A stretch of 64,000 nucleotides of DNA, taken from a virus. The stretch spans positions 1 to 64,000 of IMG/VR virus record IMGVR_UViG_3300030450_002056. One strand, 5' to 3'. Shown here in pieces: positions 36,239 to 60,435 of this stretch. The position numbers and the translations under genes were made by a program. The notes under the pieces were generated by a model, which did not search any database, was not told the origin of the DNA, and worked only from the letters and a program-made list of their open reading frames with translations. The first letter of the stretch is position 1; every line of letters begins with the position of its first letter.

Positions 36239-36646
36239 ATGAAGTGGTTTAATGTTTTTAAAGAAGATGTTGATGCACTTCCATTTGAGGAATTAGTAGC
36301 CCGTAGCAAATTGATGAATCAATATACAGTAAGTTTAGAAAAGAAATTAATAGCCCATATTCATGAACAATTAGATATTCATAAAAAATACTTAATTAAA
36401 TTAGTTGAAAAGTATAATGAAGAATTACCGGACACTTTAGAACCAATTAAAATACCAGACGGGTATCAAGTAATAGAATTGCCGAGCAATAAATATATGG
36501 ACAGAACCTTAAACAGAGAACAATATTATCAAATAGCAAACACTGAAACTATGGTTAATAGGATTGCAATGTATAATGTGCAAGTAATAATATTCAAAAA
36601 AATGATTGAGAATAAAGATATTCAAAGACAGGCAGGGTTAATATGA
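36239..36646 (+). CDS. Late-module protein with N-terminal MKWFNVFK peptide
   Basis: 135 residues, helical, probably a coiled coil. The first eight residues (MKWFNVFK) are a variant of the peptide found on other late proteins (see 39090-39097). ATG 36239 follows GGGGGATTAAGT. Candidate virion or procapsid component. Confidence 0.6.
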   Translation: MKWFNVFKEDVDALPFEELVARSKLMNQYTVSLEKKLIAHIHEQLDIHKKYLIKLVEKYNEELPDTLEPIKIPDGYQVIELPSNKYMDRTLNREQYYQIANTETMVNRIAMYNVQVIIFKKMIENKDIQRQAGLI

Positions 36647-36906
36647 AACAATGGTTAATTAAAAAACTAATTGCTTTCATGGGCAATGCTTATGTTTGGC
36701 TCGATAAAAGAATAGAGCATGAAACAGGCCCAATTTTAGGATTAAAAATAGATGATGATTTTGAGGCTATGAGCCGATATGAATTATGTAATCACATTGA
36801 GGATAAATTTGGATTAGAAAGGGATTCATTTTGGTTATTACAATCAACTCAAAAAATTAGATTTTGCTGTCAGACGGCTAGGAATATATTGAATAAGGAT
36901 GATTAG
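36643..36906 (+). CDS. Unrecognised late protein
   Basis: 87 residues. N-terminal helix MKQWLIKKLIAFMGN is amphipathic. ATGA-coupled to the preceding gene. No family recognised. Confidence 0.6.
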   Translation: MKQWLIKKLIAFMGNAYVWLDKRIEHETGPILGLKIDDDFEAMSRYELCNHIEDKFGLERDSFWLLQSTQKIRFCCQTARNILNKDD

Positions 36907-36957
36907 ATTTATTAGAGATTTACTATATGGAATATGGTGCTTAGGGAGATTTAGACC

Positions 36958-37356
36958 ATGAATTTAGTTAGTTGGGTAAAACGACAAATTAAGGAATTGC
37001 CTGATAATCTTACTATGTATGCTATTCCTTTTATGAGAGAAGAATTAACACCCGCAGTAATAGCACATCGAGATGAAAATAGAGAAAAATTATTAGATAT
37101 GTCTGAAAAGGAAAGAATAAAGTTTCTTAAGTTATTTGCTAGGAAATATATATTATCAGAATTGCCTAAATATAATTTAATGAGAACAAAAAATCGTCTT
37201 ATGAATAAAAGCAGTTGGTTTGACCAATTAAAAATGTCTGGTGCAGTAACAACAACTTCAGCAGGAACAAGTAATCTATTTAATAATCAATCAGTAATGG
37301 GGAGGTGTATTTGTGGCAAAGAAAGATGCAAAAAGTGTAACAAAAAAACAACCTAA
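36958..37356 (+). CDS. Late protein with SWVKRQIK start and C-terminal zinc ribbon
   Basis: 132 residues. Starts MNLVSWVKRQIKEL and near the C-terminus has SSWFDQLKMSG, both resembling the late-module Trp/Lys peptide. Ends with CICGKERCKKC, a zinc knuckle, overlapping the next gene by 44 bases. Confidence 0.6.
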   Translation: MNLVSWVKRQIKELPDNLTMYAIPFMREELTPAVIAHRDENREKLLDMSEKERIKFLKLFARKYILSELPKYNLMRTKNRLMNKSSWFDQLKMSGAVTTTSAGTSNLFNNQSVMGRCICGKERCKKCNKKTT

Positions 37357-38437
37357 GATTACAATGGGTAAAGGGACTTCCCGCGTTGAATACAAAGGAG
37401 AATCATTTGCCCAATTATGGAAAGAATGGGAAGATACTGCTAAAAGTATTAATGCAACTGATATGGGAATTAGTAGGTTTACAGGGAGTTTATATGAAAT
37501 GTTAGTTAAACATGGAATAGTGGGAAGAATAATGAAGAATTCTGGCCCTAAAGAAACTCCCGGAATTGGGAAGGAATTAAAGTTCTTAGCGAGTTTAGCA
37601 AAGAAGCCCAAATTTAAACCATCAGAGATGAAACAATTAGAAAGTATTGTTCAAACATTACAAACCTATGGTGGACAACAAAGCGATTTAAACCCAAGAA
37701 ATATAGCATTTGAAGGTGTTGTTAAAGTAAGGGGCAATAAAGCAATTAAGAAACCTATTTTCGGTCATTATCGAACAGATGCTTATGTTAAGTTCAGAGA
37801 AGCCGTTAAAGAAAAAGATGAATTAGATTCTGTGGATAGTTCATGGTGGTCAACTAACAAAGGAGAATCCACCCCTCCTATGTGGCAAGCAATTTATGGA
37901 GATGGAACTAAGGAACCGTTTACAACTAAGGGGTTAACTACTGTAGTTACAGAAGCGGTCAAAGGATTATTAAATGCAAAACACCATATTATTCAAAGTG
38001 ACCCTGTAGCAATAGAAAGTGCAGGTGCTGCTAAATTCGCATATGAAGGATTGTCCGAAGTAAAGACTGCTATGGATAGAATGGTAAATGACCCTCGCTA
38101 TACTACTAGAGCGGGCAATTTCTCATCAAAAGCCGCAAGGACTAGATTAATGAAGATACCATATAATGTCCGGAATAATAAAGAAAGTGAAAATGTTAAA
38201 ACATTATTGGCCGCAAAAGGAACTCCGGGTCAAATAGAAGACTTTTATATTTACATCTCAAGAAGACAACTCAATCATATGGCTAAATTAGCAGGTTGGA
38301 AACCCCATCCCGAATCTACATATATGAAAAATAAAGAGGCAGAAAAAGAAAAGCCTAAAGAAGATAAGGATGAGAAGTTAACAAGTGCTAATAGGGATGT
38401 TAAAGATTGGAGAACTGTAATGAAGGTGGTTGTTTAA
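37313..38437 (+). CDS. Unrecognised 374-residue late protein
   Basis: Starts at GTG 37313 after GGAGGTGTATTT. Basic, helical, no recognised family. The extreme C-terminus, DWRTVMKVVV, resembles the late-module peptide placed at the end rather than the start. Upstream of a probable terminase small subunit; probably a virion-assembly protein. Confidence 0.65.
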   Translation: MAKKDAKSVTKKQPKITMGKGTSRVEYKGESFAQLWKEWEDTAKSINATDMGISRFTGSLYEMLVKHGIVGRIMKNSGPKETPGIGKELKFLASLAKKPKFKPSEMKQLESIVQTLQTYGGQQSDLNPRNIAFEGVVKVRGNKAIKKPIFGHYRTDAYVKFREAVKEKDELDSVDSSWWSTNKGESTPPMWQAIYGDGTKEPFTTKGLTTVVTEAVKGLLNAKHHIIQSDPVAIESAGAAKFAYEGLSEVKTAMDRMVNDPRYTTRAGNFSSKAARTRLMKIPYNVRNNKESENVKTLLAAKGTPGQIEDFYIYISRRQLNHMAKLAGWKPHPESTYMKNKEAEKEKPKEDKDEKLTSANRDVKDWRTVMKVVV

Positions 38438-39093
38438 TGGTAACGAGAAAAAGATGCGTAGTTTGTAACCACGATGATAGAGAGGGCATAGAAGATATGC
38501 TTGAAAATATGCAAATGGATGCAGATAACATTGATAGAGAGAATAATTGGCCCAGTGGCACTACATCTAGGCATCAAAGAAATCATATGGGTGATTATCA
38601 CAATTCTTCCAACCCAAAATGCGCTTTTTGCATAAGCCCTGCACGAATAGACCTTGAGCGGGAGATACATGAAGGTAGATTAGACACAAAAATGGTATCA
38701 GAAATGTTATTATGCTCAGAAGACCAAGTTTTACGGCACATAAGCAGACATTTACAGCCTTTAGTCCAAAAATCAGCCGCAAATATTATTGCACAAAAGC
38801 AAGTGGACGAAATTGCCACATTAGAACATAGCATTAACCGTTTAGACACCAAATTGGACGAATTATTTAACGAAGGTGGAACTGACCCTAAATATATTGA
38901 TAGTTTAACTAAGTTAGCAAGAGAAGTTAGGGAATCATTAAAATATGTTATGGAATTTAAGGGTAAATTGGTGCATCGAAGACAAGATACTGTTATTGTT
39001 GCCCAAATGCAAATTGTTCAAGAAGTATTAGCACAAAATCATCCACAAGTGTGGTTAGATGTTAAAAGTAAAATGGAGGAGAAGTTACAATGA
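38437..39093 (+). CDS. DNA-binding protein, probable terminase small subunit
   Basis: 218 residues from ATG 38437 (TAATG overlap). CVVCNHDDREGIE, TSRHQRNHM, CAFCISPARIDLEREIHEG and SEDQVLRHISRHL make a duplicated zinc/helix-turn-helix motif typical of phage proteins that recognise DNA. The C-terminal half is a coiled coil for oligomerisation. The location ahead of terminase large subunit and portal suits a small terminase, but the family is not proven. Confidence 0.5.
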   Translation: MVTRKRCVVCNHDDREGIEDMLENMQMDADNIDRENNWPSGTTSRHQRNHMGDYHNSSNPKCAFCISPARIDLEREIHEGRLDTKMVSEMLLCSEDQVLRHISRHLQPLVQKSAANIIAQKQVDEIATLEHSINRLDTKLDELFNEGGTDPKYIDSLTKLAREVRESLKYVMEFKGKLVHRRQDTVIVAQMQIVQEVLAQNHPQVWLDVKSKMEEKLQ

Positions 39094-40208
39094 GTTGGGA
39101 AGATACAATAAAGATGCCAAAGCATCTAAAAAGAATTAAGCGCAAAATAGACCAAATGCCAGATTACGAAGTAGTTGAAATAGATGCACAAAGTAGTCAT
39201 GGTGGTAAAGTAGATTTTACAGAAACTGAAGAACATGAGAAACATGAAGATGAACCACATACTATTTATCCCCCTTCTACTCCCAAAGATAAAACCTATG
39301 GTAACTATATGAGGAAATTACCATCTATTATGCGTAGAGCGGCACAGGGTAGAAAGAGGTTTATGAATCAAAGTGGAAGACCGTTAGTAACAAAAGGTGA
39401 AAAAATGAATAATATAAGAAAGATGGCTGAGAGATTTGATTATCAATCTTTACCAGCAGACCTAAGAGAGCAAGTAGATGAATTTTATAGAGATGAAGCA
39501 ATAAAAGATGTTAAAGCAGAAGTTAAAAGAAGAGGAGTAAAGAAACTACAAGAAGGAACTGAAAGGACTTTAATCAGAATGTTAAATACGAGGAAATTTG
39601 AAAATGTATATTTAACTAGTAATAATTTAGAATTTAAAGGCCCATATTTAATTGGTGGTTATGATTTAACTAATCCTGTTGAAATGGCAGCATTTAACAA
39701 AGCACCAAGAAATGCTAAGTATTGGGCTAGTAAAGGGAAACCAATGCCAAAAAGAAAAGTGGAAGATGAAGAATTACCTGAATCATTTTATGATAAGATA
39801 TTTGCACAAGCAAAAATTATTGGTCATCCTATGCCATTTCCAAAAAGACGGCAATCAATAGAGAAATTAATTCAAGTTATTACTGACCATCAGAAAAATA
39901 AAATAAACGAATTAGACCAAACAGATGTTGAAGCAGTAGAAAAAGTAATAGAGATTTTGAGTAAAGATTATGAAGAATATGATTACACAGATGATTCAGG
40001 GCAAATGCAACAGGGCAGGGGTTCAAGCACTACAGGTATGAAAGGTAGACATCTTGATGAATTAAAATCATTATTAGGATTTCTCAAAGATAATGTTAAT
40101 GCAAAGAAATCTTGGAAGAAAACCCTAAAGTCTAATAAAAGTCTTGCTCAACATATTAAAGACATATTAGATGAAATGGGATATGATTCTTCTACAGTTA
40201 AAGTTTAG
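39090..40208 (+). CDS. Late protein with N-terminal MSWEDTIK peptide
   Basis: 372 residues, basic and helical; family unknown. Its first eight residues are one of the clearest copies of the late-module peptide. A similar KKSWKKTLKS lies near residue 345. ATGA overlap with the preceding gene. Presumably an internal head or assembly protein. Confidence 0.65.
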   Translation: MSWEDTIKMPKHLKRIKRKIDQMPDYEVVEIDAQSSHGGKVDFTETEEHEKHEDEPHTIYPPSTPKDKTYGNYMRKLPSIMRRAAQGRKRFMNQSGRPLVTKGEKMNNIRKMAERFDYQSLPADLREQVDEFYRDEAIKDVKAEVKRRGVKKLQEGTERTLIRMLNTRKFENVYLTSNNLEFKGPYLIGGYDLTNPVEMAAFNKAPRNAKYWASKGKPMPKRKVEDEELPESFYDKIFAQAKIIGHPMPFPKRRQSIEKLIQVITDHQKNKINELDQTDVEAVEKVIEILSKDYEEYDYTDDSGQMQQGRGSSTTGMKGRHLDELKSLLGFLKDNVNAKKSWKKTLKSNKSLAQHIKDILDEMGYDSSTVKV

Positions 40209-40218
40209 GTGAATTAAA

Positions 40219-41847
40219 ATGAATTGGTTTTCTGCGCTTAAGTCTGTTGAACCGCAGCCAGCGCAGCCTATCAAAAAAGGAGTCGAAGATTACTTAAACA
40301 GAATTATTACTGATGAGGGCCGAGATAATTTTATTGAAGAAATTAAACAAATTGAGAACACCCAATCTCTAGCATTAAAAAGAAATAATACTAAAAAAGC
40401 ACTTGAAGAGTTTATGGATAATAAAGACAAATATCCTCTATCTCAAGTTCCGGGATTTGAAGAGAGAGTTGTAGAAACTCTTGATATGTTGGAAGAGATG
40501 GGAACTACTAGTGCTAAATATGAACCTAGCATGGAAGCCGCAATAAAAGATTTGAATAGCGGTAAGGTAGATAAAATGTTAGGATTGCTTACTAAAGAAG
40601 TCGTCACAAGGAATAAAGAATATATTACAGCCGTAGTCAAGAAAAATAAGAACAAAATATTAAATGGTCTTAAGAAATTAAATGATACAGATAGAGAAAA
40701 GTTATCCGCAGTTCTCCAAGAGGAATACGGGTTTGGCGAACCAACAGAACCTAAGTATATGATGAGAAGTAATGTTAGTGCGAATAATATAAATGAATAT
40801 ATTAGATATGTTATTTTTGGTAATGTCCCAAGAGGATATAGAAAAGAATTACTTCCAGATTTAGGTGGTGTATTTGGTTCTAATTATACAGTATACCCAA
40901 GAGCACTTGAGTATATTTTAAAAGAATCTGAATTAAAATATGATGGTGGTGATTTTGAAATTCCACCTGCTAATGAATCTCTTGCTAAAATAAAAGCACT
41001 ACGCCTATTAAGGGATAATAAACAAGGCCAAGAACATTCTAATTTACAAACTAAAATGGCTAAAGCGCAAAAATATTACGCATCAAAAGAAAGGAAAGAT
41101 GTAAAGAATAAATTAAATAAAATAGAACTTCGATTTTTGAACGATTTAGATAATGAAGAAAAAAGACAGTTTGCTATTATGATTTCTAAACTTGATATTA
41201 GAGTGTATAATTTACCAATAGAAGATTATCACGCGTTAAATTATAAAGAGGATTATGCACACCTTACTGATAGTGTTGCCCAAGAATATGGATTTAAAGA
41301 CGGTCAAGATTTTGAAGAGTGGTTAGAGGATTCTCCAGAAAGAGAAGACGCGTGGGATAATATGTTAAAGAAATGGAAATCTGATGGTGGGGATGCTGGA
41401 GTTGTTAAACCTATGGTTCCAAGTGATGTTCCATTGTTATCTAAATTATTTAGTATATCTGATAGTGATATTAAACAGACGTTATTAGACCTTTATTCTT
41501 CTGGCCCAAATAAAACTACTGAAACGATTGATGCAAAACATAGACAATTCAAAGATATATTGTTAGTGTTGGATGATTTAGACGGAGATGAACCAACTAA
41601 GTTTTCAAGATTATGGAATAAGTTTCAAAGGCGAAACGCTAATGATGATAAATCTGAACTATTCAATGAAATGATGGAAGAACTAATAAATAATCATCAT
41701 TATCAGAAAATTAGAAATGATGTGCGTAAAGAAATTAATGATACAATTAAACATTTAGTTGAAACAAACTACTCCATTGGGAAGAAAGGGGTAATAGAAC
41801 CACTTGCCAAATTACAAAGTATAGGAGCACTACAGGTGATAACATGA
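40219..41847 (+). CDS. Large late protein with N-terminal MNWFSALK peptide
   Basis: 542 residues, mostly helical, acidic/basic mixed, family unknown. MNWFSALK is a diverged copy of the late-module peptide. AGGTGAATTAAA precedes the ATG. Ends by ATGA overlap with the 912-residue gene. Possible internal virion protein. Confidence 0.65.
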   Translation: MNWFSALKSVEPQPAQPIKKGVEDYLNRIITDEGRDNFIEEIKQIENTQSLALKRNNTKKALEEFMDNKDKYPLSQVPGFEERVVETLDMLEEMGTTSAKYEPSMEAAIKDLNSGKVDKMLGLLTKEVVTRNKEYITAVVKKNKNKILNGLKKLNDTDREKLSAVLQEEYGFGEPTEPKYMMRSNVSANNINEYIRYVIFGNVPRGYRKELLPDLGGVFGSNYTVYPRALEYILKESELKYDGGDFEIPPANESLAKIKALRLLRDNKQGQEHSNLQTKMAKAQKYYASKERKDVKNKLNKIELRFLNDLDNEEKRQFAIMISKLDIRVYNLPIEDYHALNYKEDYAHLTDSVAQEYGFKDGQDFEEWLEDSPEREDAWDNMLKKWKSDGGDAGVVKPMVPSDVPLLSKLFSISDSDIKQTLLDLYSSGPNKTTETIDAKHRQFKDILLVLDDLDGDEPTKFSRLWNKFQRRNANDDKSELFNEMMEELINNHHYQKIRNDVRKEINDTIKHLVETNYSIGKKGVIEPLAKLQSIGALQVIT

Positions 41848-45142: not shown

Positions 45143-46582
45143 ATGGCTGAAGTAGAACAACTAGATTTTATGTCTGCAATGGACATGGAGTTATCTAAAA
45201 ACTCTTTTCCATATTTCTTCCAAAATGTATTAGGAATGCAATATCCTGACTATATGCAAGAGTGGAAAGAATTAATGGAAACCACTGATAGAACTGTAAT
45301 TGTATGTAGTCGTGACCACGGAAAATCAGTATTTATGCATTCATGGGTAGTTTGGAAGTTAGTATTTGAAGAACCACCATTTCAGATGCTTTACATTTCT
45401 TCTAACCAAAAGCAGACACTTGTGCATATGAGAGAGATTGATAGATATTTCAACTTACCAGCACTTAAAAAGTATAGACCCAGTAGGGGTTGGGCTATTG
45501 GTAATATTCAATTAACTAATGGTAATGCTATATTAGAGCGTTCTGTTGGTTCTCAGATTCGTGGTCTTCACCCTCAAGAAATTATTATTGACGACCCTTT
45601 GAAGGAATTTAGTTTATCAGGTATTAATAGAGTAACAGATTGGTTCTTTGGAGATATGATACCTACCCTTCACCACACCGCCAGTCTTAGAATGATTGGA
45701 ACTCCTTTTACATATACAGATATATTTACACAGTTAGAAGAAAACGAAGCATATACTGTAAGGAAATATCCTTGTCTAAATTCCCTTAATGAACCACTAT
45801 GGCCTGACCGTTGGGACTATGATGCACTTATGCAAAGAAAATCTGAAATTGGTTCTTTGAAGTTTACAAGAGAATATTTATGTATTCCAGTATCAACTGG
45901 GACTGCATTATTCGACCCTGATTATGTTAATGCTTGTAAGAATAAAGAATACATACTTAAGTTAGGTAATAGAAGGGATAAGGGATATAAATATTATGTT
46001 GGAGTAGACCCCGCTATATCTACTGATGGTGACTACAATGTAATTATGGTTTTAGAAGTAGATGAAGATATGAATAAAGCAATTGTTCATGTTGATAGGT
46101 CTAAGAATGTAGAGTTTAGAGAAAACATAGAAAAAATTAGATTAATTGGGAAACTCTATCAACCTGAAGCAGTGTTATATGAAACTAATACCTTCGCTAA
46201 GGCATTTACTCAAGAATTAAGAAGTATATCTGATTTGAATGTTAAGGATTTTAATACAACTAGAAAAAAGAAACAGGAGATAATTCTCAACTTACAAATG
46301 AACATTGAGAACGGTAAGTTAATCTTCCCTTATGGGGATAATAACAGTAAAAAAATGACGAGAGCATTAATAGAAGAACTCTCAATGTTCTCTATTACTG
46401 AGTCGGGAAGATTTGAAGGAGTGGGAGCGCATGACGATTTAGTGATGGGATTAGCACTTGCTAACGCCGCTTCCCAAGTGGCTACAGACACCTTCATACT
46501 CCTTGATGATATAGGCATATTCGATAGTCCCACTAGCCAACAAACTGCCCCAAATGCAGGGTTATTAGGTTTAAATTTTTAG
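45143..46582 (+). CDS. terL: Terminase large subunit
   Basis: 479 residues; packages DNA into the procapsid with an ATPase motor and a headful/cut nuclease. Walker A variant is CSRDHGKS (55-62), Walker B is EIIIDDP (146-152), and coupling motif RMIGTP follows. The RNase H-like nuclease has VGVDPA (Asp289), YETNTF, and GAHDDLVMGLA near the C-terminus. GGAGGTGATTAT precedes the ATG. Complete gene, and with the portal downstream it fixes the identity of the module. Confidence 0.93.
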   Translation: MAEVEQLDFMSAMDMELSKNSFPYFFQNVLGMQYPDYMQEWKELMETTDRTVIVCSRDHGKSVFMHSWVVWKLVFEEPPFQMLYISSNQKQTLVHMREIDRYFNLPALKKYRPSRGWAIGNIQLTNGNAILERSVGSQIRGLHPQEIIIDDPLKEFSLSGINRVTDWFFGDMIPTLHHTASLRMIGTPFTYTDIFTQLEENEAYTVRKYPCLNSLNEPLWPDRWDYDALMQRKSEIGSLKFTREYLCIPVSTGTALFDPDYVNACKNKEYILKLGNRRDKGYKYYVGVDPAISTDGDYNVIMVLEVDEDMNKAIVHVDRSKNVEFRENIEKIRLIGKLYQPEAVLYETNTFAKAFTQELRSISDLNVKDFNTTRKKKQEIILNLQMNIENGKLIFPYGDNNSKKMTRALIEELSMFSITESGRFEGVGAHDDLVMGLALANAASQVATDTFILLDDIGIFDSPTSQQTAPNAGLLGLNF

Positions 46583-46599
46583 AGCGAAAGGTGAATAAG

Positions 46600-47961: not shown

Positions 47962-48011
47962 ATCCAAACATTGATATGCAATTGCCCTATCGTCTTGATA
48001 AGGGAGAGTGA
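47958..48011 (+). CDS. 17-residue ORF between endonuclease and portal
   Basis: MNPNIDMQLPYRLDKGE. ATGA overlap upstream and it contains the GGGAGAG binding site of the portal gene. May only serve translational coupling. Confidence 0.25.
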   Translation: MNPNIDMQLPYRLDKGE

Positions 48012-48016
48012 ACACT

Positions 48017-50056: not shown

Positions 50057-50323
50057 ATGAGTTGGGAAGATACAATTAAAAGATTACCGGATGCTAGTTA
50101 TGTTAGCAATTTCCCTAAACCAAAGCAAAGTTTAATTGATAGGGCAAAAACAAATTTAGACCAAGAAAAAGCAGCAAGGCATCTTAGTGGTAGTTATGGT
50201 CAATGTAAAGTTAAAAGATGTGGTGCTACCACTTGTCGTTCAAACAAAGATATGCGATGTATGTTAGATGAAATTTATATTGATGATAACGGACATTGCC
50301 AACAATTTGTAAGGAAGGAATAA
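50057..50323 (+). CDS. Late Cys-rich protein with MSWEDTIK peptide
   Basis: 88 residues. Peptide, basic linker, then CKVKRCGATTCRSNKDMRC...HCQQF with five cysteines, a compact metal or disulfide fold. GGTAATTAAA precedes the ATG. Confidence 0.65.
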   Translation: MSWEDTIKRLPDASYVSNFPKPKQSLIDRAKTNLDQEKAARHLSGSYGQCKVKRCGATTCRSNKDMRCMLDEIYIDDNGHCQQFVRKE

Positions 50324-50540: not shown

Positions 50541-51863
50541 ATGCCAGTTTTATCTAAAGCAGACCTCTTTAGGGAGATTTCCCTACCTGCTTCAGATGAA
50601 ATCAAAAAACAATTTAGCCCCAATGTTAAGAATATCTTAAGGAATGATTTAGGTATAGAACCACATTTTATTCGTAATTTAGAAAGGGCAGTAAATAACA
50701 CCCCAAATTCTTTTAAGGAGAAACTTAGAAGACAATTCAAAGATAGCGATTTAATGGTTGTTCCTTCTAAAAAAGGAAAATATATGCATTTCCCTGAGAA
50801 GTATGGAAAAAACCACCCTACTCATGCGGGTGAATACAAACCTAAAGTTATGGATAATGATAGTCTTATTGTTGCTATTAATGGGTATATTGATGTATTT
50901 GAAGGAATATTAGAAGAAGTAAGTAAGATTCCATTAGAAATGAAACTTAGAGTTTTAGAAGGTCAATTAGAAAACCCAGATAGTATTCGTGAATATGTTA
51001 GTGATGGTGTAGCAGATTTATTAATTGAAAGCCCTAGAACATATGACCAAATAGATACAGCAACAAGAACATTAAAGGTATTTTTGAAGCGCATTAAGAG
51101 AAATATAAAACCTGAAAAGGAATCTTTTGTTGGTTTTAATAAAGCCTTAAAAAAAGCAATTAAGGAATATTCCATAAGTGACTTAAAAGAAAATTGGCAT
51201 GGTTCTTATTCAGAATTTGCAAATGCATTTGGATTTTCTTCACAAAAAACCGTTAATGTGTTTTTAAAGAATTATGAAGATGGTAAATTAGCAGTAGAAA
51301 CTCTTGCTATTTTGAATGAAGAATTCGATGGGAAAGAAGGAATAGAGATATTTAAAGAAATGTTAAAAGAAGTAGGTATGAAAACAAGAAGTTTCAAATT
51401 TACAGAAGAAACTAAAGTTCAGGATTACTTTAATATTAGTTTATCTAAGTTATTGAAAGAAATAGAAAAGGCCTCAAACCCTAGTGCTGGATTTGGAGAA
51501 ATTAAATATTTTTTTAGATTAAAAGAAAATACCTTTTTGGATTATGGAGAAACAGTCGAAATGAGATTACTTGATTTATTAGATGATAAAGAAGAAGTAG
51601 AATACTATTACAATGTTACTCCTGATACAAATGAAGAGGATAAACAAGGCATTGCTGATTTAAAAGATGAAACATATCAGGCTGAAATAAAGGTAACAAC
51701 AAGGCAATATGCTTTCATGTATTACATTGGTAAGTTAAGGGATTTAAAATTGGATAGTTCTTTATTGACTAATGATATTTCTGATGATTATTCAGAAGAT
51801 AAATTAGAAGAGAAATTTAAATATGTTAAAGAGGCATTTGAAGAAATGGGGGAAAAAGAATGA
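50541..51863 (+). CDS. Unrecognised 440-residue late protein
   Basis: Helical, charged, family unknown. Start MPVLSKADLFREI has no Trp but LSKADLFREI may be a remote form of the peptide. Contains HFPEKYGKNHPTHAGEYKP. Overlaps the next MSW gene by ATGA. Confidence 0.6.
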   Translation: MPVLSKADLFREISLPASDEIKKQFSPNVKNILRNDLGIEPHFIRNLERAVNNTPNSFKEKLRRQFKDSDLMVVPSKKGKYMHFPEKYGKNHPTHAGEYKPKVMDNDSLIVAINGYIDVFEGILEEVSKIPLEMKLRVLEGQLENPDSIREYVSDGVADLLIESPRTYDQIDTATRTLKVFLKRIKRNIKPEKESFVGFNKALKKAIKEYSISDLKENWHGSYSEFANAFGFSSQKTVNVFLKNYEDGKLAVETLAILNEEFDGKEGIEIFKEMLKEVGMKTRSFKFTEETKVQDYFNISLSKLLKEIEKASNPSAGFGEIKYFFRLKENTFLDYGETVEMRLLDLLDDKEEVEYYYNVTPDTNEEDKQGIADLKDETYQAEIKVTTRQYAFMYYIGKLRDLKLDSSLLTNDISDDYSEDKLEEKFKYVKEAFEEMGEKE

Positions 51864-52405
51864 GTTGGAAAGAGATATTAAAAGCAGATGAATTTTGCGA
51901 TGAATGTGGAGATAGAATTAAAGATGGAGAATCTTATACTGTTGAGTCTATGCCCAAAGATTTTCATTCGGGCAAGAAAGGAGAAAGTGCAACCCTTTGT
52001 GAGAATTGTTATAATGAATTAGATTTGCCTACTAAAGATTGGACTAAAGACCTTGACCCTTTCTTATTTATGCCAGATAAAAAGAAAACACTCGAAAAGG
52101 CAGATATTGGTCTTCTTTCTAAATTAGAAGGTAAAGAGAAAAAGAGATTAAAGAAAGTATTACAGTCTGCTCAACCAACTGAATACTTTGGGCAGGATTT
52201 AACTAAACTATCTAATTTAATAGATGAAATGCAAAAGTTAGATTTGATTAAGTCTGATGAAAAATTATCTAAGAAGATGAAAGGCTTTGAAGAAACTAAT
52301 TTAGATATTGTAGCATCTGCCGCAGAATTAAGAAAGGACTATGAAACTCTATACAATCAATTGAGAGGGATTGTATATCCAAAAAGTAAAGGTGATATGA
52401 AATGA
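51860..52405 (+). CDS. Late zinc-ribbon protein with MSWKEILK peptide
   Basis: 181 residues. Directly after the peptide comes CDECGDRI...CENCYNE, a C4 ribbon resembling treble-clef modules. A helical remainder with the acidic run KKTLEKAD follows. Confidence 0.65.
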   Translation: MSWKEILKADEFCDECGDRIKDGESYTVESMPKDFHSGKKGESATLCENCYNELDLPTKDWTKDLDPFLFMPDKKKTLEKADIGLLSKLEGKEKKRLKKVLQSAQPTEYFGQDLTKLSNLIDEMQKLDLIKSDEKLSKKMKGFEETNLDIVASAAELRKDYETLYNQLRGIVYPKSKGDMK

Positions 52406-52626
52406 GTTGGAAAGATAATTTAAAGAAGTATTCAATACCATCAATGATGTTGGTAGATTTCATGAGATATACTCAAGATTTAGCAAAGTATTCAACTAGT
52501 CTGTCAAAAAATACACTAGAGAAGGGGATGGATAACATGACAGAGGAAAAATTAGAACGACTAGGAGAGTTTGCAAAAAAGGTTCTAGATGAAATAGAGT
52601 TACTAAAAAGAAGTGGTCTGAAATGA
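52402..52626 (+). CDS. Small late protein with MSWKDNLK peptide
   Basis: 74 residues. Peptide, hydrophobic helix (PSMMLVDFMRYTQ), then coiled coil (EEKLERLGEFAKKVLDEIEL). ATGA-coupled on both sides to other peptide-bearing genes. Confidence 0.65.
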   Translation: MSWKDNLKKYSIPSMMLVDFMRYTQDLAKYSTSLSKNTLEKGMDNMTEEKLERLGEFAKKVLDEIELLKRSGLK

Positions 52627-52919
52627 GTTGGGAAGATGTTGTCAAAAGGGTTGGGCCTACTAGGGTAAGAATGTTCTATAATGCGAAGAGAAGACAATCT
52701 AGCACTAATGAACATCTTAAGAGAATTGAAAGAAAACTTGATGAGTTGTATAAGGAACTAGAGGTGTTAGATGGCAAGGATGTTGCTGATATTTCTGCTG
52801 AATATTTAACAGACGAAATGTTAGAGAAACTTAACCTTCTAGGTTATGCTGAAGTTGAATTACAGTCGATATCTAATGCTTTGGAGATAGGTAAAACTCC
52901 ACAGGAATTTGGTGAGTAA
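52623..52919 (+). CDS. Small late protein with MSWEDVVK peptide
   Basis: 98 residues. Peptide, basic segment (RVRMFYNAKRRQ), then helices. ATGA-coupled upstream. Confidence 0.65.
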   Translation: MSWEDVVKRVGPTRVRMFYNAKRRQSSTNEHLKRIERKLDELYKELEVLDGKDVADISAEYLTDEMLEKLNLLGYAEVELQSISNALEIGKTPQEFGE

Positions 52920-52920: not shown

Positions 52921-53349
52921 ATGAGTTGGAAAGAAATATTAAAAGATGTTAAAAGTGAACTTAAGGAAATGTTTAATGACGAAAAGGTAATAGAAAGGTA
53001 TGATGCAGTGGGTGATGCTGAGAAAGAAATGGTAGAATCACTAATGTTTGTTCCTTCTAAATTTCCTGACAGGGATAAAAGAGTCAGACAGGCTATTTAC
53101 GCTGTGCTTGGTTTAGACTCATACAAAGAATATCCCGAAACTAAATCAGCACCAGATTACCTTGAAGAAAAAGATAAAGAATTTCTTGCGCTAGACTCAT
53201 TATATGAAGAGTATCAAGAGAAAGGAAGAAAAATACTTGAAAAAATTTGGGATGAAAACCCATTTGATGAGAATTCAAGAGAATTTCGTGATTTAGAAGG
53301 AATGTTGGATAGAGAATACGAAGCACATGGAATAAAGCCGCAATACTAA
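52921..53349 (+). CDS. Late protein with MSWKEILK peptide
   Basis: 142 residues, acidic and helical. ATG 52921 follows GGTGAGTAAA. Same eight-residue start as two neighbours; the remainder is unrelated to them. Confidence 0.65.
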   Translation: MSWKEILKDVKSELKEMFNDEKVIERYDAVGDAEKEMVESLMFVPSKFPDRDKRVRQAIYAVLGLDSYKEYPETKSAPDYLEEKDKEFLALDSLYEEYQEKGRKILEKIWDENPFDENSREFRDLEGMLDREYEAHGIKPQY

Positions 53350-53359
53350 GGTGATTAAA

Positions 53360-53560
53360 ATGAGTTGGAAAGAAATATTAAAAGAAATGTCAGATGATGA
53401 CTTAAAAGAACAGTATGATGAAATGCTAGATGAAATATATCCGGAGATTAAAATAGGCACACTTACCTTTTCTCCATCTAGGGTGCTTAGGGAATTAGAC
53501 CCTACAGCATATAGAATAGGATTAAGTGAATATGAAGATTCCTTAATGGAGGATGAATAA
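53360..53560 (+). CDS. Small acidic late protein with MSWKEILK peptide
   Basis: 66 residues. ATG 53360 follows AAGGTGATTAAA. Acidic, helical; contains PSRVLRELDPTAYR. Function unknown. Confidence 0.65.
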   Translation: MSWKEILKEMSDDDLKEQYDEMLDEIYPEIKIGTLTFSPSRVLRELDPTAYRIGLSEYEDSLMEDE

Positions 53561-53561
53561 A

Positions 53562-53792
53562 ATGACGGAAGAAAATGAAATGTTAATGCTCTTGAAAGAG
53601 TTAGTTGAAAAAGTGAAAAGTTTAGAAGAAACGGTGTATAACCAAGATAACCTATTAATGAAATCAGGTTATGTTAAAGTCAATACTCCTAAACCAATGA
53701 TGGGCAATAATACTGCACCAACGGGTGATATAATTTCTAAGATGGAATGGGACGATATACATAAAATCGTTGAGCAAATAGGAGGCAATTGA
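53562..53792 (+). CDS. Coiled-coil late protein with C-terminal MEWDDIHK peptide
   Basis: 76 residues. N-terminal coiled coil (LKELVEKVKSLEETV); the C-terminus, SKMEWDDIHKIVEQIGG, resembles the C-terminus of the protease/scaffold protein (SSMSWGDIHNLARKF). This links the small proteins to the scaffold. Confidence 0.6.
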   Translation: MTEENEMLMLLKELVEKVKSLEETVYNQDNLLMKSGYVKVNTPKPMMGNNTAPTGDIISKMEWDDIHKIVEQIGGN

Positions 53793-53793
53793 A

Positions 53794-54531: not shown

Positions 54532-54540
54532 AGTGATATT

Positions 54541-57087
54541 GTGGCTATATCTGGCGTTTCCTTTGAAAAAGAAAAAAATGCGCTATCCAAGCGTGTTTTA
54601 GATTTCTTTGAGAGGACTCGCTATTCTTATTTATCTGCGAAAGAAGACCCAAATAAATATGGTAAAAAATGGAGAGCAACAGTTAAGTCTATTCGTGAGT
54701 CATTTGATGGCTTAGATTCTTTTACTAGAGTATTGAAGAAATACATTGATGAAGACGCAGTATTTGATGATAATGTAGAAGACCCTAATTCAACTCAAGC
54801 CAAGCGACTATATGATGCGATTAAAGAAATGAGGTTTCAATCTGAAGAAGTTTCTGACCCATTCGCTAATCAGTTGGGTGAAGAAGTAATTGATGTATTA
54901 CTCAATAATTCTAGTGTCTTTGCGGCCTTTATTCACTATGCCCTTCGCAAACATTCCCTCCCTATCCCTGCATCGGCATGGAAAAAACACGGCCTTAAGC
55001 CCGATGAAATAACTCAAAATGCCAACGGATTAGATTTAGAGATGAAAGATATACCCTTATACATTTCAGAACACTATGGGGAAGATAAAGACACTAAGCG
55101 TATCAAAACCAAATTTAAAAGCGTTTTGTCTATCCTAAAGAAAGTGTTTCTTGAGGAATATAGCGAAAAAGAATGGGATGCTCTAATTGATATAGATATT
55201 AAAAAGTCTGAAAAGAGTTCAGATGAGAAGTCTGAGATTAATTTCCTAACCCCTAATAAACCAATGTATCGAATATTTGAATTAAAAGACTTAGAGCAAT
55301 TGAAAGGTTTTTCTGGTGAATATGTAGTTCAAGAAAAATATGATGGTATGAGAGTGCAAATCCATAAAAATGGTAAAACCATTAAAATTCTTTCTTATAA
55401 CCAAAAAGATATTTCTGATAAATGTCCAGAGCAAATAGAAAGATTGCGTGGAAAGGAAATAGGGAACTGTATCTTAGATGGAGAGTTAATGATATTTAAG
55501 AACGGTAAAGCATTACATAGGGCCGCTACAATTTCACACATTTTTAAGAAGCCTATTGAAGATAGCCAATTAAGACTTCATGTTTTTGATATTATGGAAC
55601 ATGATGATAAAGATTTAATAGATGAACCTTTGAGGGAAAGAATTAATATTCTGTTATATCAATATGCTCAACATTCATCTGAAGAATTAGCATATCCTTC
55701 AAAGAAAGACACTAGAATTGCAGATTCTATAAAAGAAGTAGGGGATTATTCTGAAGAAATAATGAATCTACCCGCTTCTGAAGGTGTGGTTATTAAAGAT
55801 ATTGAATCTACATATCAATTAGGTTCAAGGAAAAATCCTAAGTGGGTTAAATGGAAGAAATTTGTTGATTTAGATGTTATTGTCTTGGATGATAAAACAA
55901 CAAAGAGTGGTCTTCATTCATATACTTTAGGTATTGGCCCATTATCCGCAGAACAAGCCCGTTCTTATAAGACTGTAGAATTGAAAGATAAAGCATATCT
56001 TTCTGTAGGTAAAGCACTAAACACTAAGCAATCCGTTAAGGTGGGTAGTATTGTTAGAGTTAAGGTGGATGAGGTAAAGAAGACTAAAGAGGGTTTTAGT
56101 TTATTCTCAGCGAAAGTTATTGAAATTCCTGAAGTGACTCAATCAGATAAATTAGAAACTTTAGAGTTATTATCAGACAAAGCCAAAAAATCAATTTGGG
56201 AAGATTTAGATAAGCCGTTTAAATATAAATTAAAAGGCGTAAAGAAAATGTATATTACTGATGAAATACATGGGGAAGCAGAAATTCTTATGAAATCTAA
56301 TTTAGATGGATTTACTATTTACGGTTTTAATGGTGATAGTTTAATGGAGAAACAAGCCCTATACGATATAGATGTTTGGAAAGAAGATTTACAAATTGCA
56401 CTTAAAAGTGTTCGTTCTGAGTTAAGAATGGCTATTAAAAATAAATTAATTGAGTGGGAAGAACCTGTAGAATTTGATAAAATACAAGAGTTTGTGTTAG
56501 AAAATTATATTGACCATTTTAAAGGGCCGGCATTTAATAGTGATGTAAAGAAATTAAAGAAGTGGTTAATTAGGCAAGAAGATATTGTTTATCATCGCAC
56601 TAATGATATATTTTCAGTGAACCCTACTGATATAGCAAAGGATGAAAAGGTTAATCCAAAAGAAGGTAAATTTACAATTACAACTACTGAAGATGATAAC
56701 TTATTATTAATTTATGTTGTAAATGATAAAAGGTTAGCGTGGTTAATAGATATTGAAGATTCTTCTGATATTTATAACTTATTTGGTAAATCTAATAAAT
56801 TTCCTGCTAAAATTGTTTTGGGTAATGCTAGAGAAAGTAAAATATTAGATAAAGGAATTATTACTCTTGGTGTTCAAAGGGACGGTTATCACGAATTTAA
56901 ATTAGCAGGTGATAAATTTGATACTAGATTGCATATTAGGGTTGTTCCTTTAAATGATGAAAAACATTGGGTAGTTTGGACAGGAAAGAAACAAACTATG
57001 CTAGAATCAAAGGATGACGATGGTTTGTGGGATATTACCGAAGATAGATATAAAAATTTACCCCTGCCCGAAGGCAATCCCGCTTAG
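54541..57087 (+). CDS. Second ATP-dependent DNA ligase, multidomain, in virion module
   Basis: 848 residues from GTG 54541. About 255 residues of unique helical sequence come first. The adenylation domain has motif I EKYDGMR (Lys266), LDGELM, HVFDIM, EGVVIKD and WVKWKK. An OB domain extends to about residue 540, and about 300 further residues follow. Part of the last domain (RDGYHEFKLAGDKF followed by a WVVWTGKK end) is faintly like the LigD 3'-phosphoesterase fold but lacks its His-rich site. All catalytic motifs are intact. It differs from the early ligase at 12263 in domain plan, and its place among head genes suggests a packaged or late repair/end-sealing role. Confidence 0.82.
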   Translation: MAISGVSFEKEKNALSKRVLDFFERTRYSYLSAKEDPNKYGKKWRATVKSIRESFDGLDSFTRVLKKYIDEDAVFDDNVEDPNSTQAKRLYDAIKEMRFQSEEVSDPFANQLGEEVIDVLLNNSSVFAAFIHYALRKHSLPIPASAWKKHGLKPDEITQNANGLDLEMKDIPLYISEHYGEDKDTKRIKTKFKSVLSILKKVFLEEYSEKEWDALIDIDIKKSEKSSDEKSEINFLTPNKPMYRIFELKDLEQLKGFSGEYVVQEKYDGMRVQIHKNGKTIKILSYNQKDISDKCPEQIERLRGKEIGNCILDGELMIFKNGKALHRAATISHIFKKPIEDSQLRLHVFDIMEHDDKDLIDEPLRERINILLYQYAQHSSEELAYPSKKDTRIADSIKEVGDYSEEIMNLPASEGVVIKDIESTYQLGSRKNPKWVKWKKFVDLDVIVLDDKTTKSGLHSYTLGIGPLSAEQARSYKTVELKDKAYLSVGKALNTKQSVKVGSIVRVKVDEVKKTKEGFSLFSAKVIEIPEVTQSDKLETLELLSDKAKKSIWEDLDKPFKYKLKGVKKMYITDEIHGEAEILMKSNLDGFTIYGFNGDSLMEKQALYDIDVWKEDLQIALKSVRSELRMAIKNKLIEWEEPVEFDKIQEFVLENYIDHFKGPAFNSDVKKLKKWLIRQEDIVYHRTNDIFSVNPTDIAKDEKVNPKEGKFTITTTEDDNLLLIYVVNDKRLAWLIDIEDSSDIYNLFGKSNKFPAKIVLGNARESKILDKGIITLGVQRDGYHEFKLAGDKFDTRLHIRVVPLNDEKHWVVWTGKKQTMLESKDDDGLWDITEDRYKNLPLPEGNPA

Positions 57088-57116
57088 TTCATATAGTGAA
57101 AGGTGAAGTGTAGTTT

Positions 57117-58307
57117 ATGTTAGAGCGGCCAGTTCTAATGAAGCAAGAAACTAAAGACTTCACAATACTAAAGTCAGATGATTTAATTATAGGTGGATAT
57201 GCTTCAATAGAAATGGTAGATAAGCAGAACGATTTAATTACTTTACAAGCATTACAAAAAGCAGTTAAAGATTACATGGGAGAAAAGAAATTCAGAAATG
57301 TAATGTCTAATCATTCAAATGTTCAAGTAGGAGAAGTAGTAGATTCTTATAGAGATAAGAACGGAGTAGTCCATAAATCTCAAGTTGATGATGTAGGATT
57401 TTATGTTGTTATTAAATTAAGAGATGATATTGAAAAAGCCAAAGAAATATCAAGAGGAATTAGAAAAGGCACATTACGTTCATTTAGTATAGGAGGACAA
57501 GCGATTTCAAAACGCAAAAGAAAATCAAATGATTTTGGCGAATATAATGAAATTGATGAGTTAGAGTTGCATGAAGTCACAATTTGTGAAAAAGGAATAA
57601 ACCCAGAAGCAAAGTTTGATATATTAAAAGAAGAAAAAAACAAAGGTGAAAAAATGACTGAAAAATTGGAAAAAGCCCTTGAGGAGTTAAATGACCTGAT
57701 GAAACAGGTTAATGAACTCCAAAAGGAAGAAGAAACGCCACTTGAGGCAGACATGGAATACATGGCTACTGAAGGTGAAGCCGAAGAAGAGTTGGAATTA
57801 TCCGATGACTCTTTAGGCGAAGATGAAGCAGAAAAAGCACTGGATGAAGATAGCACCCGTGATTATGAAGCCGGAGAAGAAGTAGTAAGTGGCGGAACGC
57901 CAACTGCAACACCTGCTCCACTAAAGGTTTCAAAAGAGTGGGATTCGTCTGAATTCACTACGCTTGACTTATCTGTTGAGAATGTCGAAAAGGCATATGA
58001 ACAGTTTAAGGCAGAACAACTAGAAAAGATTGCTTATGATAGTATGAATAAGCACTTTGAGAGCAGGTTTGCTACAGAGCAATCCATTAGAAAGGCATCT
58101 GTTGAGCGAAATGAATATGACGCTCGTTCAGAAGTAGCCGAACTAAAAGAACAGTTCGCAGACCTACGCAAATCATTAACAACAGAAAATTCGCAAATAG
58201 TAAAAGAGGAATCAACAGTTTCTCTACCGGATGGTTTTCCAACCACATCTGAAGAATTATCTTCGATGAGTTGGGGAGATATTCACAACTTAGCGAGGAA
58301 ATTTTAA
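57117..58307 (+). CDS. Prohead protease fused to scaffold
   Basis: 396 residues. The N-terminal 180 residues are an HK97/U35-type prohead protease with the His in MSNHSNVQVGEV, the Ser in RSFSIGG and the ELHEVTI strand. The C-terminal 215 residues are an acidic coiled-coil scaffold ending SSMSWGDIHNLARKF, which matches the peptide on the small late proteins. The protease would mature the capsid after assembly. An internal start at 57654 may give the scaffold alone. ATG is the first of several; TTATG at 57118 with GGTGAAGTG upstream. Confidence 0.82.
   Translation: MLERPVLMKQETKDFTILKSDDLIIGGYASIEMVDKQNDLITLQALQKAVKDYMGEKKFRNVMSNHSNVQVGEVVDSYRDKNGVVHKSQVDDVGFYVVIKLRDDIEKAKEISRGIRKGTLRSFSIGGQAISKRKRKSNDFGEYNEIDELELHEVTICEKGINPEAKFDILKEEKNKGEKMTEKLEKALEELNDLMKQVNELQKEEETPLEADMEYMATEGEAEEELELSDDSLGEDEAEKALDEDSTRDYEAGEEVVSGGTPTATPAPLKVSKEWDSSEFTTLDLSVENVEKAYEQFKAEQLEKIAYDSMNKHFESRFATEQSIRKASVERNEYDARSEVAELKEQFADLRKSLTTENSQIVKEESTVSLPDGFPTTSEELSSMSWGDIHNLARKF
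57654..58307 (+). CDS. Nested scaffold protein from internal start
   Basis: In frame within the protease gene, AAAGGTGAAAAAATG matches the ribosome binding site and spacing used at 60157 and 60444. The product (217 residues, MTEKLEKALEELN start) would be exactly the scaffold part, as in lambda Nu3 within C. Supported by sequence only. Confidence 0.55.
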   Translation: MTEKLEKALEELNDLMKQVNELQKEEETPLEADMEYMATEGEAEEELELSDDSLGEDEAEKALDEDSTRDYEAGEEVVSGGTPTATPAPLKVSKEWDSSEFTTLDLSVENVEKAYEQFKAEQLEKIAYDSMNKHFESRFATEQSIRKASVERNEYDARSEVAELKEQFADLRKSLTTENSQIVKEESTVSLPDGFPTTSEELSSMSWGDIHNLARKF

Positions 58308-58319
58308 GGAGATGAAAAA

Positions 58320-59696
58320 ATGACTGGATATACAAACACATTAAAAGACTTAGAAGCCGCAACATACGGATTAACTGGCCCTGCTGGTAATGCTCTACTA
58401 AAGAGTTCTGGTGTTGTTGGTGGATTCGGAACGCCCCATGATGCGGCATCAAACCCGTTTAGTGCCGCTAGTGGATTAGGCGACTTATACAACGTTCTTT
58501 ATGGACAGAAAGTATGGTCTATGTTAAATCAAGAGGTTAACCCTCTTTCTATCTTAGCAAAGAGGCCTTACACTTCAAGCGGTTGGAGGGTTCTAAAGAG
58601 CCGACCTACTGGTGGTAGTGGTTCTTCGTTTACAACAGGTTCAACTGCTGTAGCCGCAAATACTGCTGATTTATCTACTCCACGACCAGACCAAATTGGT
58701 GGTGTTGAGGAAAATGCTTCATTAGACGGTGCAAATGGATTTAGGCCATTATCACCCGAATACGCTAAACTATATGTTAGCCCTAAGACTGTTGCACATC
58801 TATTTGAGTTCTCAGAACTTGGAATGGAATTAGCAGCCATTGATGACGGAGTAGGCGATATTCGTGCTATTATCCGTGAGGACATGGGTAAGCATCACGC
58901 AGAAACACAGAGCAAGATGTTAGTAATGCCGTTTGAAAACTATGATGACGGAACTGCAACAGACATTGAGAGAAACTACACTTCTCTACTAAAGATTGTA
59001 TCTTCAGCAGCAGAAATCGCTGCAATGTATAATGCTAACTTACTAAACACAGGCGCAAACAACGGAGATAACTCCGCAGTAGTTGCTGATGTAAAGAATA
59101 TCTTTGGAACATCAAGAACAGTAACTATTTCGTCTAACGCTGCAACAGGAACTGCATCTTACTTAGATGCTGAAGTTGACTTCGGTGATGGATATGCGGC
59201 TGGTGATGCTAGGGTTCTAACTCTAAGTATGCTAAATAGCATGATTCGCAGAATCCGCCAGAACGGTGGAAACCCGAAGTGCATCCTAACAGGCTATGAT
59301 ACAATTCAGCACATTGCTGACTTGCTACAGAGTCAAGAGCGATTTATGGATAGGAAAGAGATTGTTCCTACTCATAATGGTGTAAAAGGCGTAAAGGGAA
59401 CTGAGGCTGGATTTAGAGTAGCAACTTACTTTGATATACCATTAATCCCTGCAAAGGACATGGGTTCAACGGGTGCTAACACTACAAACACCCTAAGTGA
59501 CTTATTGTTCTTAGACACAGACCATATGTGGCTATCTGTTATGAAGCCTACTCAATACTTTGAGGATGGTATTAGCAACGGAAACCCATTTGGTGTTGGA
59601 AAACTAGGGAATCAGGGTATGTATCGCACAATGGGCGAAACTTGCTGCTCTTTCTTCAAGGGACAGGGTAAAATAACCAACATTAAGAGTGCGTGA
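58320..59696 (+). CDS. Major capsid protein, HK97-like
   Basis: 458 residues immediately downstream of the protease/scaffold, the standard position. The length, a flexible Gly/Ala-rich N-terminal region, LGDLYNVLYGQKVWSMLNQEVNPLSIL and the C-terminal beta segment with DTDHMWLSVMKPTQYFEDG fit the HK97 fold with an inserted domain. GC-ending codons are more frequent than in neighbours, a sign of high expression. AAGGAGATGAAAAA precedes the ATG. The fold is inferred from position and general pattern rather than a unique motif. Confidence 0.82.
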   Translation: MTGYTNTLKDLEAATYGLTGPAGNALLKSSGVVGGFGTPHDAASNPFSAASGLGDLYNVLYGQKVWSMLNQEVNPLSILAKRPYTSSGWRVLKSRPTGGSGSSFTTGSTAVAANTADLSTPRPDQIGGVEENASLDGANGFRPLSPEYAKLYVSPKTVAHLFEFSELGMELAAIDDGVGDIRAIIREDMGKHHAETQSKMLVMPFENYDDGTATDIERNYTSLLKIVSSAAEIAAMYNANLLNTGANNGDNSAVVADVKNIFGTSRTVTISSNAATGTASYLDAEVDFGDGYAAGDARVLTLSMLNSMIRRIRQNGGNPKCILTGYDTIQHIADLLQSQERFMDRKEIVPTHNGVKGVKGTEAGFRVATYFDIPLIPAKDMGSTGANTTNTLSDLLFLDTDHMWLSVMKPTQYFEDGISNGNPFGVGKLGNQGMYRTMGETCCSFFKGQGKITNIKSA

Positions 59697-59707
59697 GGTG
59701 ATTAAGA

Positions 59708-60061
59708 ATGGCTTTAGCATATACAGTAACATTGCTTGCTGACCATAAGGGTGTAACAACCCCAAAGGTCATGGGTGATGAATACATGGTGGATGCATTA
59801 ATTGATGTAACGTCTATTGTAGCGGCAGGTTCAGTAATACCTGCCTCTGCATTAGGCCTATCATCAGTTCACGCTGTTTCGATAACTGGCTCTGACAATG
59901 CTAATGCAGTATTGCCTTTAGTAGAGATTAGTGCCGCAGGTGCTTATGAGAGTGGAACATCTTTTGCTCTCATGTTTACAGCATTAGACGGAACTAACGC
60001 TACTTTGGCTAATGACGCTAATGGCGGCTCTGTTAGAGTAAGAGTTTGGGGAAACCTTTGA
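59708..60061 (+). CDS. Probable capsid decoration/head protein
   Basis: 117 residues, Ala/Val/Thr-rich, beta, no Cys; directly behind the capsid gene with the same GC-rich codon use and before a strong terminator. Fits a decoration or head-stabilising protein. Confidence 0.6.
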   Translation: MALAYTVTLLADHKGVTTPKVMGDEYMVDALIDVTSIVAAGSVIPASALGLSSVHAVSITGSDNANAVLPLVEISAAGAYESGTSFALMFTALDGTNATLANDANGGSVRVRVWGNL

Positions 60062-60093
60062 CTCTGATAACTGAAAATTAAACCATAATAATA

Positions 60094-60141
60094 CGCGGCT
60101 TCATTCCCCCCTTAATTGGGGGGAGTGGGTCGCACTTTTTT
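60094..60141 (+). terminator. Strong terminator after capsid genes
   Basis: CATTCCCCCC (60102-60111) pairs with GGGGGGAGTG (about 60119-60128) around a TTAATT loop, with an outer GCG/CGC pair and six T at 60137. Clearest terminator of the late block. Confidence 0.8.
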
Positions 60142-60156
60142 ATCAAGGTGAAAAAA

Positions 60157-60435
60157 ATGAACTGGAAAACTATATTAAAAATAAGTGAAGGTGAAACATC
60201 TGACTTTAGTCGATTTGGGCAACCTGAATGGGATGAAGGTTTAGAAGAAATAAAGGGTAATAAAGAAAGAGAAGCCCTTAAATGGGTATTAGAACAACGC
60301 CCTAAATATGCAGCCAAGTTGAAAGAGTCTGAGCATAAGCAATTGATTGCTCAATTAGCACTTATGGCAAGAAGTTTAGAAGGTAAACATCAAAAAAAGA
60401 TGTTAGCAACTATTCATGGTGTTCTAAAAAATTAG
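60157..60435 (+). CDS. Small late protein with MNWKTILK peptide
   Basis: 92 residues read from ATG 60157 after AAGGTGAAAAAA. The MNW form uses AAC and differs in codons from the MSW forms. Remainder is helical. It is the only peptide-bearing gene beyond the capsid terminator. Confidence 0.6.
   Translation: MNWKTILKISEGETSDFSRFGQPEWDEGLEEIKGNKEREALKWVLEQRPKYAAKLKESEHKQLIAQLALMARSLEGKHQKKMLATIHGVLKN

Follow-up and report, generated by a model that had tools for sequence, protein, structure and literature searches.

A tryptophan-centred peptide on late proteins of apparently archaeal viruses as a candidate signal for capsid targeting and release

A shared peptide on late proteins of one virus lineage

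In this study, we describe a short peptide centred on tryptophan, here called the W-tag, that opens eleven late proteins encoded in a 64,000-nucleotide (nt) stretch of viral DNA (the window; positions 1 to 64,000 of the 95,498-bp IMG/VR virus record IMGVR_UViG_3300030450_002056). A sequence-only reading of the window had listed ten such starts and a similar one at 36239, and all of them were found where it had placed them. A scan of all start codons of the two strands that are followed by 40 or more codons found the loose motif M-x-W-xxx-[hydrophobic]-[basic] at exactly eleven starts, which lie without exception on the plus strand at 36-61 kb, and at none of the minus-strand genes. A GGTGA/GGAGG-like sequence lies 6-12 nt upstream of each of them and, given this ribosome-binding-like sequence, the starts are credible even inside longer open frames (36239, 52921, 53360 and 60157). 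Tagged genes make up 11 of the 44 plus-strand late genes of the window, for which the chance is about 4e-21 at the early-strand rate (2/1134, 21 genomes).

The first tag, MKWFNVFK (36239-36262), belongs to a protein of 135 amino acids (aa; 36239-36646), has GGGGGA upstream and is kept in one relative (G001). It is followed by MSWEDTIK (39090-39113) on a 372-aa protein (39090-40208) and by MNWFSALK (40219-40242) on a 542-aa protein (40219-41847), whose homologue in another relative (G002) is untagged. Further downstream, MSWKDILK (49665-49688) and MSWEDTIK (50057-50080) open a 128-aa protein (49665-50051) and an 88-aa Cys-rich protein (50057-50323), respectively, and MSWKEILK (51860-51883) opens a 181-aa protein (51860-52405) whose family occurs in each of the first 13 genomes and is tagged in 8 of them. 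The tag MSWKDNLKK (52402-52425) of a 74-aa protein (52402-52626) has a non-aliphatic residue 6 and carries Lys9. Then come MSWEDVVK (52623-52646) on a 98-aa protein (52623-52919), MSWKEILK on proteins of 142 aa (tag 52921-52944, gene 52921-53349) and 66 aa (tag 53360-53383, gene 53360-53560) and, shortly after the capsid gene, MNWKTILK (60157-60180) on a 92-aa protein (60157-60435).

Searches of IMG/VR gave 531 relatives with the capsid protein and 169 with the portal. The sample consists of 21 near-complete genomes, the window's own and 20 relatives read whole, with major capsid proteins 44-100% identical; genes were called with a simple coding-potential caller, and "late" was defined by capsid-strand position and gene content. 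The strict motif, M-x-W-xxx-[ILVFM]-[KR], was matched by 256 of 1,300 capsid-strand genes vs 2 of 1,134 genes on the opposite strand (Fisher p=4e-72), and one of these two (MNWTEEFR) is a false match. The phenomenon is larger than first described, with 2 to 26 tags per genome. Recurrence in related viruses and absence from early proteins had been named beforehand as checks, and the motif is present in each of the 20 near-complete relatives, where it keeps to the late strand. Among the late genes of the first 13 genomes, 139 have Trp at position 3 and at most nine have it at any other given position. In 230 of the 241 cases with all landmarks, the tagged gene is located in one of three intervals, namely ahead of the terminase, from terminase to portal, or from portal to protease; the first and the last of these hold most tagged genes. 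An IMG/VR-wide pattern scan added at least 117 stretches, at least 83 of them matching proteins of this lineage by blast; among the matches listed, most stretches lacking such a match are single unrelated genes. A tag common to all marine viruses was rejected, since the listed pattern matches mostly trace to this lineage, and so was an ancestral tag in haloviruses, as HVTV-1, HCTV-1 and vir335 are without it.

The proteins behind the tag had been described as unrelated, which BLAST bears out: stripped of the tag, 257 such proteins from the 21 genomes fall into 173 families, mostly orphans, and 31 families mix tagged and untagged members. Their lengths range from 41 to 822 aa, and none of the 257 has a strong hydrophobic segment. 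More than half of them (54%) are without a homologue in the remaining 20 genomes, vs 16% of untagged late proteins, and this is true in each size class. Pfam recognised one family among 101 tagged representatives, PAP2 phosphatase, and PHROGs added nine weak families, most of them without a name and one called "minor head protein and DNA pilot", whose carrier did not emerge from scans of 20 large tagged proteins. The tagged PAP2 is a soluble form with a K-RP / PSGH / SR-H-D signature and is tagged in five viruses (L174:9940-10467, and also G006, G013, G027 and G043); in two genomes this phosphatase is joined to another domain, and the tag core is still present where the two meet. A tandem array of related tagged genes in G043 (L377, G043:C1:71083-75892; M-x-W-x-D-I-L-K-E-x-I-T-Q-x) is a local expansion of one cargo family.

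Conservation of the tag, with the consensus M-[STN]-W-[EKFQ]-[DNES]-[IV]-[LI]-K, spans residues 1-8 and ends sharply at residue 9. The sequence-only reading had argued from synonymous codons that selection is on the peptide, and for residues 6-8 this stands: codons at Leu7, Ile6, Thr2 and Lys8 match bulk usage and, given this match at Leu7, Ile6 and Lys8, selection acts on the peptide. Ser2 is the exception: its codon is AGT in 95% of tags, vs 56% when Ser2 belongs to an untagged late gene and 27% for serines in bulk, and TCN codons hardly occur. The tag segments may share a common origin, or nucleotides 4-6 may be under an additional constraint. The peptide is also found at other positions. 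Variants with a moved Trp and the core kept (MWFDILK, MADWFDFLK, MSNWMDILK) have W at positions 2-15; K/R at W+6 in 38 of 39 variant tags follows in part from the regular expression itself and does not serve as evidence. C-terminal copies number 14 in late and 1 in early proteins (for example, KKSWNEILKVN and LKSWIDILRN), and others lie between domains, as in the PAP2 fusion with KIEKWQDILHKK. These C-terminal and internal copies rule out a translation signal and make the tag a movable peptide.

Tryptophan tails and putative release sites

The prohead protease of the window (Peptidase_S78, PF04586, E=5e-9) is fused to a coiled-coil scaffold (57117-58307, plus strand, as are all window features given in this section) and ends SSMSWGDIHNLARKF. 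Its W-tail, MSWGDIHNLARKF (58266-58304), is predicted to form a short C-terminal helix (386-395). The second protein with such an end is a coiled-coil protein of 75-80 aa (53562-53792), conserved in 21 of 21 genomes, which ends SKMEWDDIHKIVEQIGGN; its W-tail, MEWDDIHKIVEQIGGN (53742-53789), is preceded by I-S-K. The motif [ML]-[STDE]-W-x-[DE]-[ILV]-[HN] closes 90 of 90 complete protease-scaffold tails (a few with I or V first), five further tails cut by contig ends being outside the 90, and the coiled-coil protein ends in the W-tail motif in 97 of 99 cases. Trp is invariant in both alignments while the surrounding residues vary; it is the sole invariant residue of the scaffold tail, and Met is invariant with it in the coiled-coil protein. 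The C-terminal echo of the tag that had been noticed in the window is thus real in both proteins as regards a common core, M/L-x-W-x-[DE]-[IV], but does not extend beyond it, the core being followed by [LI]-K in N-terminal tags vs [HN]-x-[LMI]-[VA] in the tails. The haloviruses without the tag, HVTV-1 and HCTV-1 among them, lack the protease W-tail as well. The W-tag is a selected, portable, late-gene-specific peptide of one lineage, related to the tails on both scaffold-like proteins.

The protease-scaffold gene is present in two copies about 91 kb apart in one record, IMGVR_UViG_3300021958_000021 (184,733 bp; L280, L290; G034), so that either the assembly was doubled or two genomes were joined.

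The last residues of the tag are [ILV]-x-K. Lys9 occurs in about 13% of tags with I, L or V at residue 6 (33/254) vs about 59% otherwise (26/44), an association with p about 2e-10 when one tag per family is taken (298 families; worst of 200 draws, 8e-8), and this pattern fits a working unit [ILV]-x-K that may shift one residue on. The same triplet is found in the head proteins, where a slash marks the possible cut. The S78 domain is flanked by F-x-I-L-K before it and F-D-I-L-K after it, both with an invariant Lys. Putative self-cleavage sites are I-L-K19/S (57165-57173; Lys invariant), just before the protease domain, and the invariant I-L-K171 (57621-57629), in a low-confidence linker between protease and scaffold; K19 and K171, counted from 57117, are K12 and K164 in alignment A3. 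A nearly invariant I-x-K precedes the scaffold tail, in the window I-V-K363 (58197-58205), between the scaffold helices and the W-tail. In the capsid N-arm, L-L-K28/SSG (58395-58403; Lys invariant) is a putative maturation cleavage site, and the invariant L-M-K/SG of the coiled-coil protein (K37; 53655-53663) a putative release site. The pattern alone is not specific, since further conserved [ILV]-x-K triplets lie inside the folded protease domain; ahead of internal or C-terminal tag copies, [ILVM]-x-K is found in 13 of 41 cases, vs 6% for other Trp residues.

Structure models were compared with the PDB. For the protease model, T4 gp21 ranks first (5jbl, E=4e-4) and a herpesvirus protease third. 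The capsid model is of modest quality (mean model confidence, pLDDT, 59; N-arm <50) and matches HK97-type shells and encapsulins, none below E=0.001; no docking pocket could be argued on it.

A capsid-targeting reading and its alternatives

We favour, with a probability of roughly two in three, the reading of the W-tag as a portable capsid-targeting and release signal in archaeal viruses. The Trp-centred helix would dock in the procapsid, most simply on a capsid inner face that also anchors the scaffold tails, and tagged proteins would in this way be built into the prohead together with the scaffold. The T4-gp21-like S78 protease would cut after Lys in [ILV]-x-K, as the sequences around the sites suggest, cutting itself out of the scaffold, trimming the capsid N-arm and cutting the tag after its own [ILV]-x-K, so that the cargo would be freed inside the head. 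The freed proteins would leave the head together with the DNA and take effect early in the next host, and this role would account for their variability. These steps are not equally secure: import into the prohead is probable, tag removal by a cut after Lys has slightly better than even odds, and for delivery into the next host the odds are even. A general cargo code, in which a W-anchor common to scaffold and cargo is bounded by [ILV]-x-K cut sites, has even odds of holding. If it does, almost any late gene product that gained some eight residues, terminally or at a domain border, would be loaded, freed and injected, and among the ~300 tagged families one would have a so far unexplored set of effectors injected against archaeal hosts. 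Capsid targeting had already been proposed from the window by analogy with T4; the lineage-wide and late-only distribution, the prohead protease beside the scaffold and the cleavage-like end of the tag speak for it, whereas the likeness to T4 is functional only.

Several observations weigh against this reading. A docking site shared by N-terminal tags and W-tails is no more than likely, because the two differ after W-x-[DE]-[IV]. Residue 9 of the tags, which would be P1', shows no enrichment in Ser or Ala such as is seen at the sites proposed for capsid and scaffold. Where the copy is C-terminal, the cargo would remain unreleased if the protease cut behind the Lys of the tag, and a site upstream is found in only about one third of these copies. 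Finally, nearly all tagged proteins are without a recognisable domain, so that an injected function is not visible in them.

Targeting to the prohead could also take place without cleavage, the Lys and the hydrophobic pair serving for docking only. [IV]-[LI]-K could form one face of a short amphipathic helix, and both the absence of Ser or Ala at P1' and the retention of Lys in C-terminal copies would agree with an uncleaved tag; however, the covariation of Lys9 with residue 6 and the sharp end of conservation better match a P3-x-P1 protease site, and the triplet also stands at invariant domain borders, so we regard this explanation as possible but rather unlikely. Alternatively, the tag could bring late proteins to a hub of assembly, be it the portal, the terminase, a chaperonin or a membrane site, with the proteins remaining outside the virion as assembly helpers or host-shutoff factors; this would account for the clustering of tagged genes around terminase, portal and protease. 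It would leave aside the release logic of [ILV]-x-K and the echo on two proteins, scaffold and coiled-coil protein, that homology or likely role places inside the procapsid, and the extreme turnover of tagged proteins is unlike that of core assembly factors; a hub is, in our judgement, a good deal less probable than an uncleaved tag.

Two further explanations bear on the nature of the peptide itself. Small tandem paralogue sets, such as that of G043, would be expected if tagged proteins were diverged paralogues with the N-terminus as the last conserved part, but the 173 families left after tag removal, their range of lengths, the families with tagged and untagged members and domains as unlike as PAP2 phosphatase and Cys-rich proteins make this very improbable, and paralogy was rejected on the clustering. 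A nucleotide-level or translation-initiation signal of late genes, to which the excess of AGT at Ser2 might point, is contradicted by the bulk-like codons 6-8 and by the C-terminal, internal and position-shifted copies; this candidate, rejected on those grounds, is the least credible of all.

From a practical point of view, a capsid-targeting tag would provide a sequence rule that predicts packaged, probably injected virus proteins where homology is nearly silent (one Pfam family in 101 representatives), a direct prediction of the cleavage rule for the whole protease group, and a short peptide for loading foreign proteins into the head of a tailed virus.

The virus and comparison with known systems

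The head module of the window has, in order, TerL (45143-46582), portal (48008-49663), S78 protease and HK97-like major capsid protein (58320-59696; SU10_MCP, phrog_24667), which is the Caudoviricetes arrangement; terminase, portal and capsid genes are on the plus strand, and terminase and portal are untagged landmarks. The archaeal-type replication genes comprise PolB, a clamp-loader-like AAA ATPase, ATP-dependent ligases and TFIIB, and a B12-type ribonucleotide reductase is encoded as well. The closest named relatives of the capsid protein are those of the haloviruses HVTV-1 and HCTV-1 (Druskaviridae; 23-24%). Magroviruses, viruses of Poseidoniales, are defined by ~90-kb genomes, archaeal-type replication genes and a halovirus-related capsid (PMC10160649), and the window's virus has all three; we infer, and only infer because no named magrovirus record matched in the searched collection, that the lineage belongs to the magroviruses and has Poseidoniales hosts. 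The capsid gene occurs in only four cellular-genome contigs, binned in bacterial metagenome-assembled genomes, where both W-tails are also present; these are probably misbinned virus.

Other genes of the window deserve mention. The B-family DNA polymerase is split over two genes (4211-5905 and 2898-3818), with a small open reading frame between them (3800-4006). Between the coiled-coil gene and the protease, 54541-57087 encodes a protein of 848 aa in which further domains accompany an ATP-dependent ligase core, and similar proteins of 848-880 aa lie at the equivalent place of the head module in other genomes; a second, ordinary ligase is found in the early region (12263-13822). Between terminase and portal, the central part of 46591-47961 reads like a LAGLIDADG endonuclease (AAFIDSDGFITI), with no Pfam match at E<=0.001.

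To our knowledge, T4 is the main system in which capsid-targeting peptides have been studied in depth, and the literature searched, with preprints and most subscription journals outside it, contained no earlier report of the W-tag. Short peptides also load cargo into the HK97-fold shell of encapsulins, but these form a cellular compartment, and the peptide is a different one that is not known to be removed; an encapsulin is moreover a stand-alone shell with dedicated cargo and no genome packaging, while terminase and portal are present here. In the case of HVTV-1 and HCTV-1, the protease has a long acidic C-terminal region, as here, but it lacks the W-tail and the late proteins lack the W-tag. 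Three head-region proteins of HVTV-1 (genes 113, 115 and 116; L341:11230-14376, 15623-19564 and 19557-20018), one of them with an annotated zeta toxin, have a recurrent element of their own, [RK]-V-Y-[IV]-x-S-P-x-[ED]-A-P-E-G. This element is found at N-termini and, in the small product of gene 116, two times, and could be a halovirus counterpart of a shared head-targeting module.

HK97 shares the S78-type protease (gp4) and a cut after Lys, at K103/S104 of gp5 (PMC10275583), a site that reads F-N-K/S. Unlike in HK97, the scaffold is here fused to the protease and is not the N-terminal domain of the capsid protein, with 28 residues preceding the putative capsid site, and HK97 has no family of tagged cargo. 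In the giant phages SPN3US and phiKZ, gp245 removes N-terminal propeptides from head and ejection proteins at a P3-x-P1 motif (PMC10052503), but those propeptides are mostly 111-254 residues long, their carriers are few, and they are not reported, in the text consulted, to share a short targeting motif.

The closest parallel is T4, where gp21 cuts the capsid-targeting sequence, residues 4 and 7 serving targeting and 8 and 10 processing, as judged by mutation (PMC9026906). As in T4 IPI-III and Alt, a short N-terminal peptide stands on otherwise unrelated, variable proteins, which are head-internal in T4; a gp21-fold prohead protease is encoded alongside, and the targeting residues are followed by a cleavage site, putative in our case. 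The differences are a W-centred tag, Lys or Arg at residue 8 of all strict tags where T4 has Glu at P1, up to 26 carriers per genome, C-terminal and internal copies, a related tail on the scaffold and a virus of archaeal type. Judging from these residues, the W-tag is analogous, not homologous, to the T4 signal and, as its putative cleavage residue differs (Lys vs Glu), lies outside the T4-type family. An independent system of this kind, in viruses that apparently infect very abundant marine archaea, would show that a short label for import into the head and release within it has evolved repeatedly.

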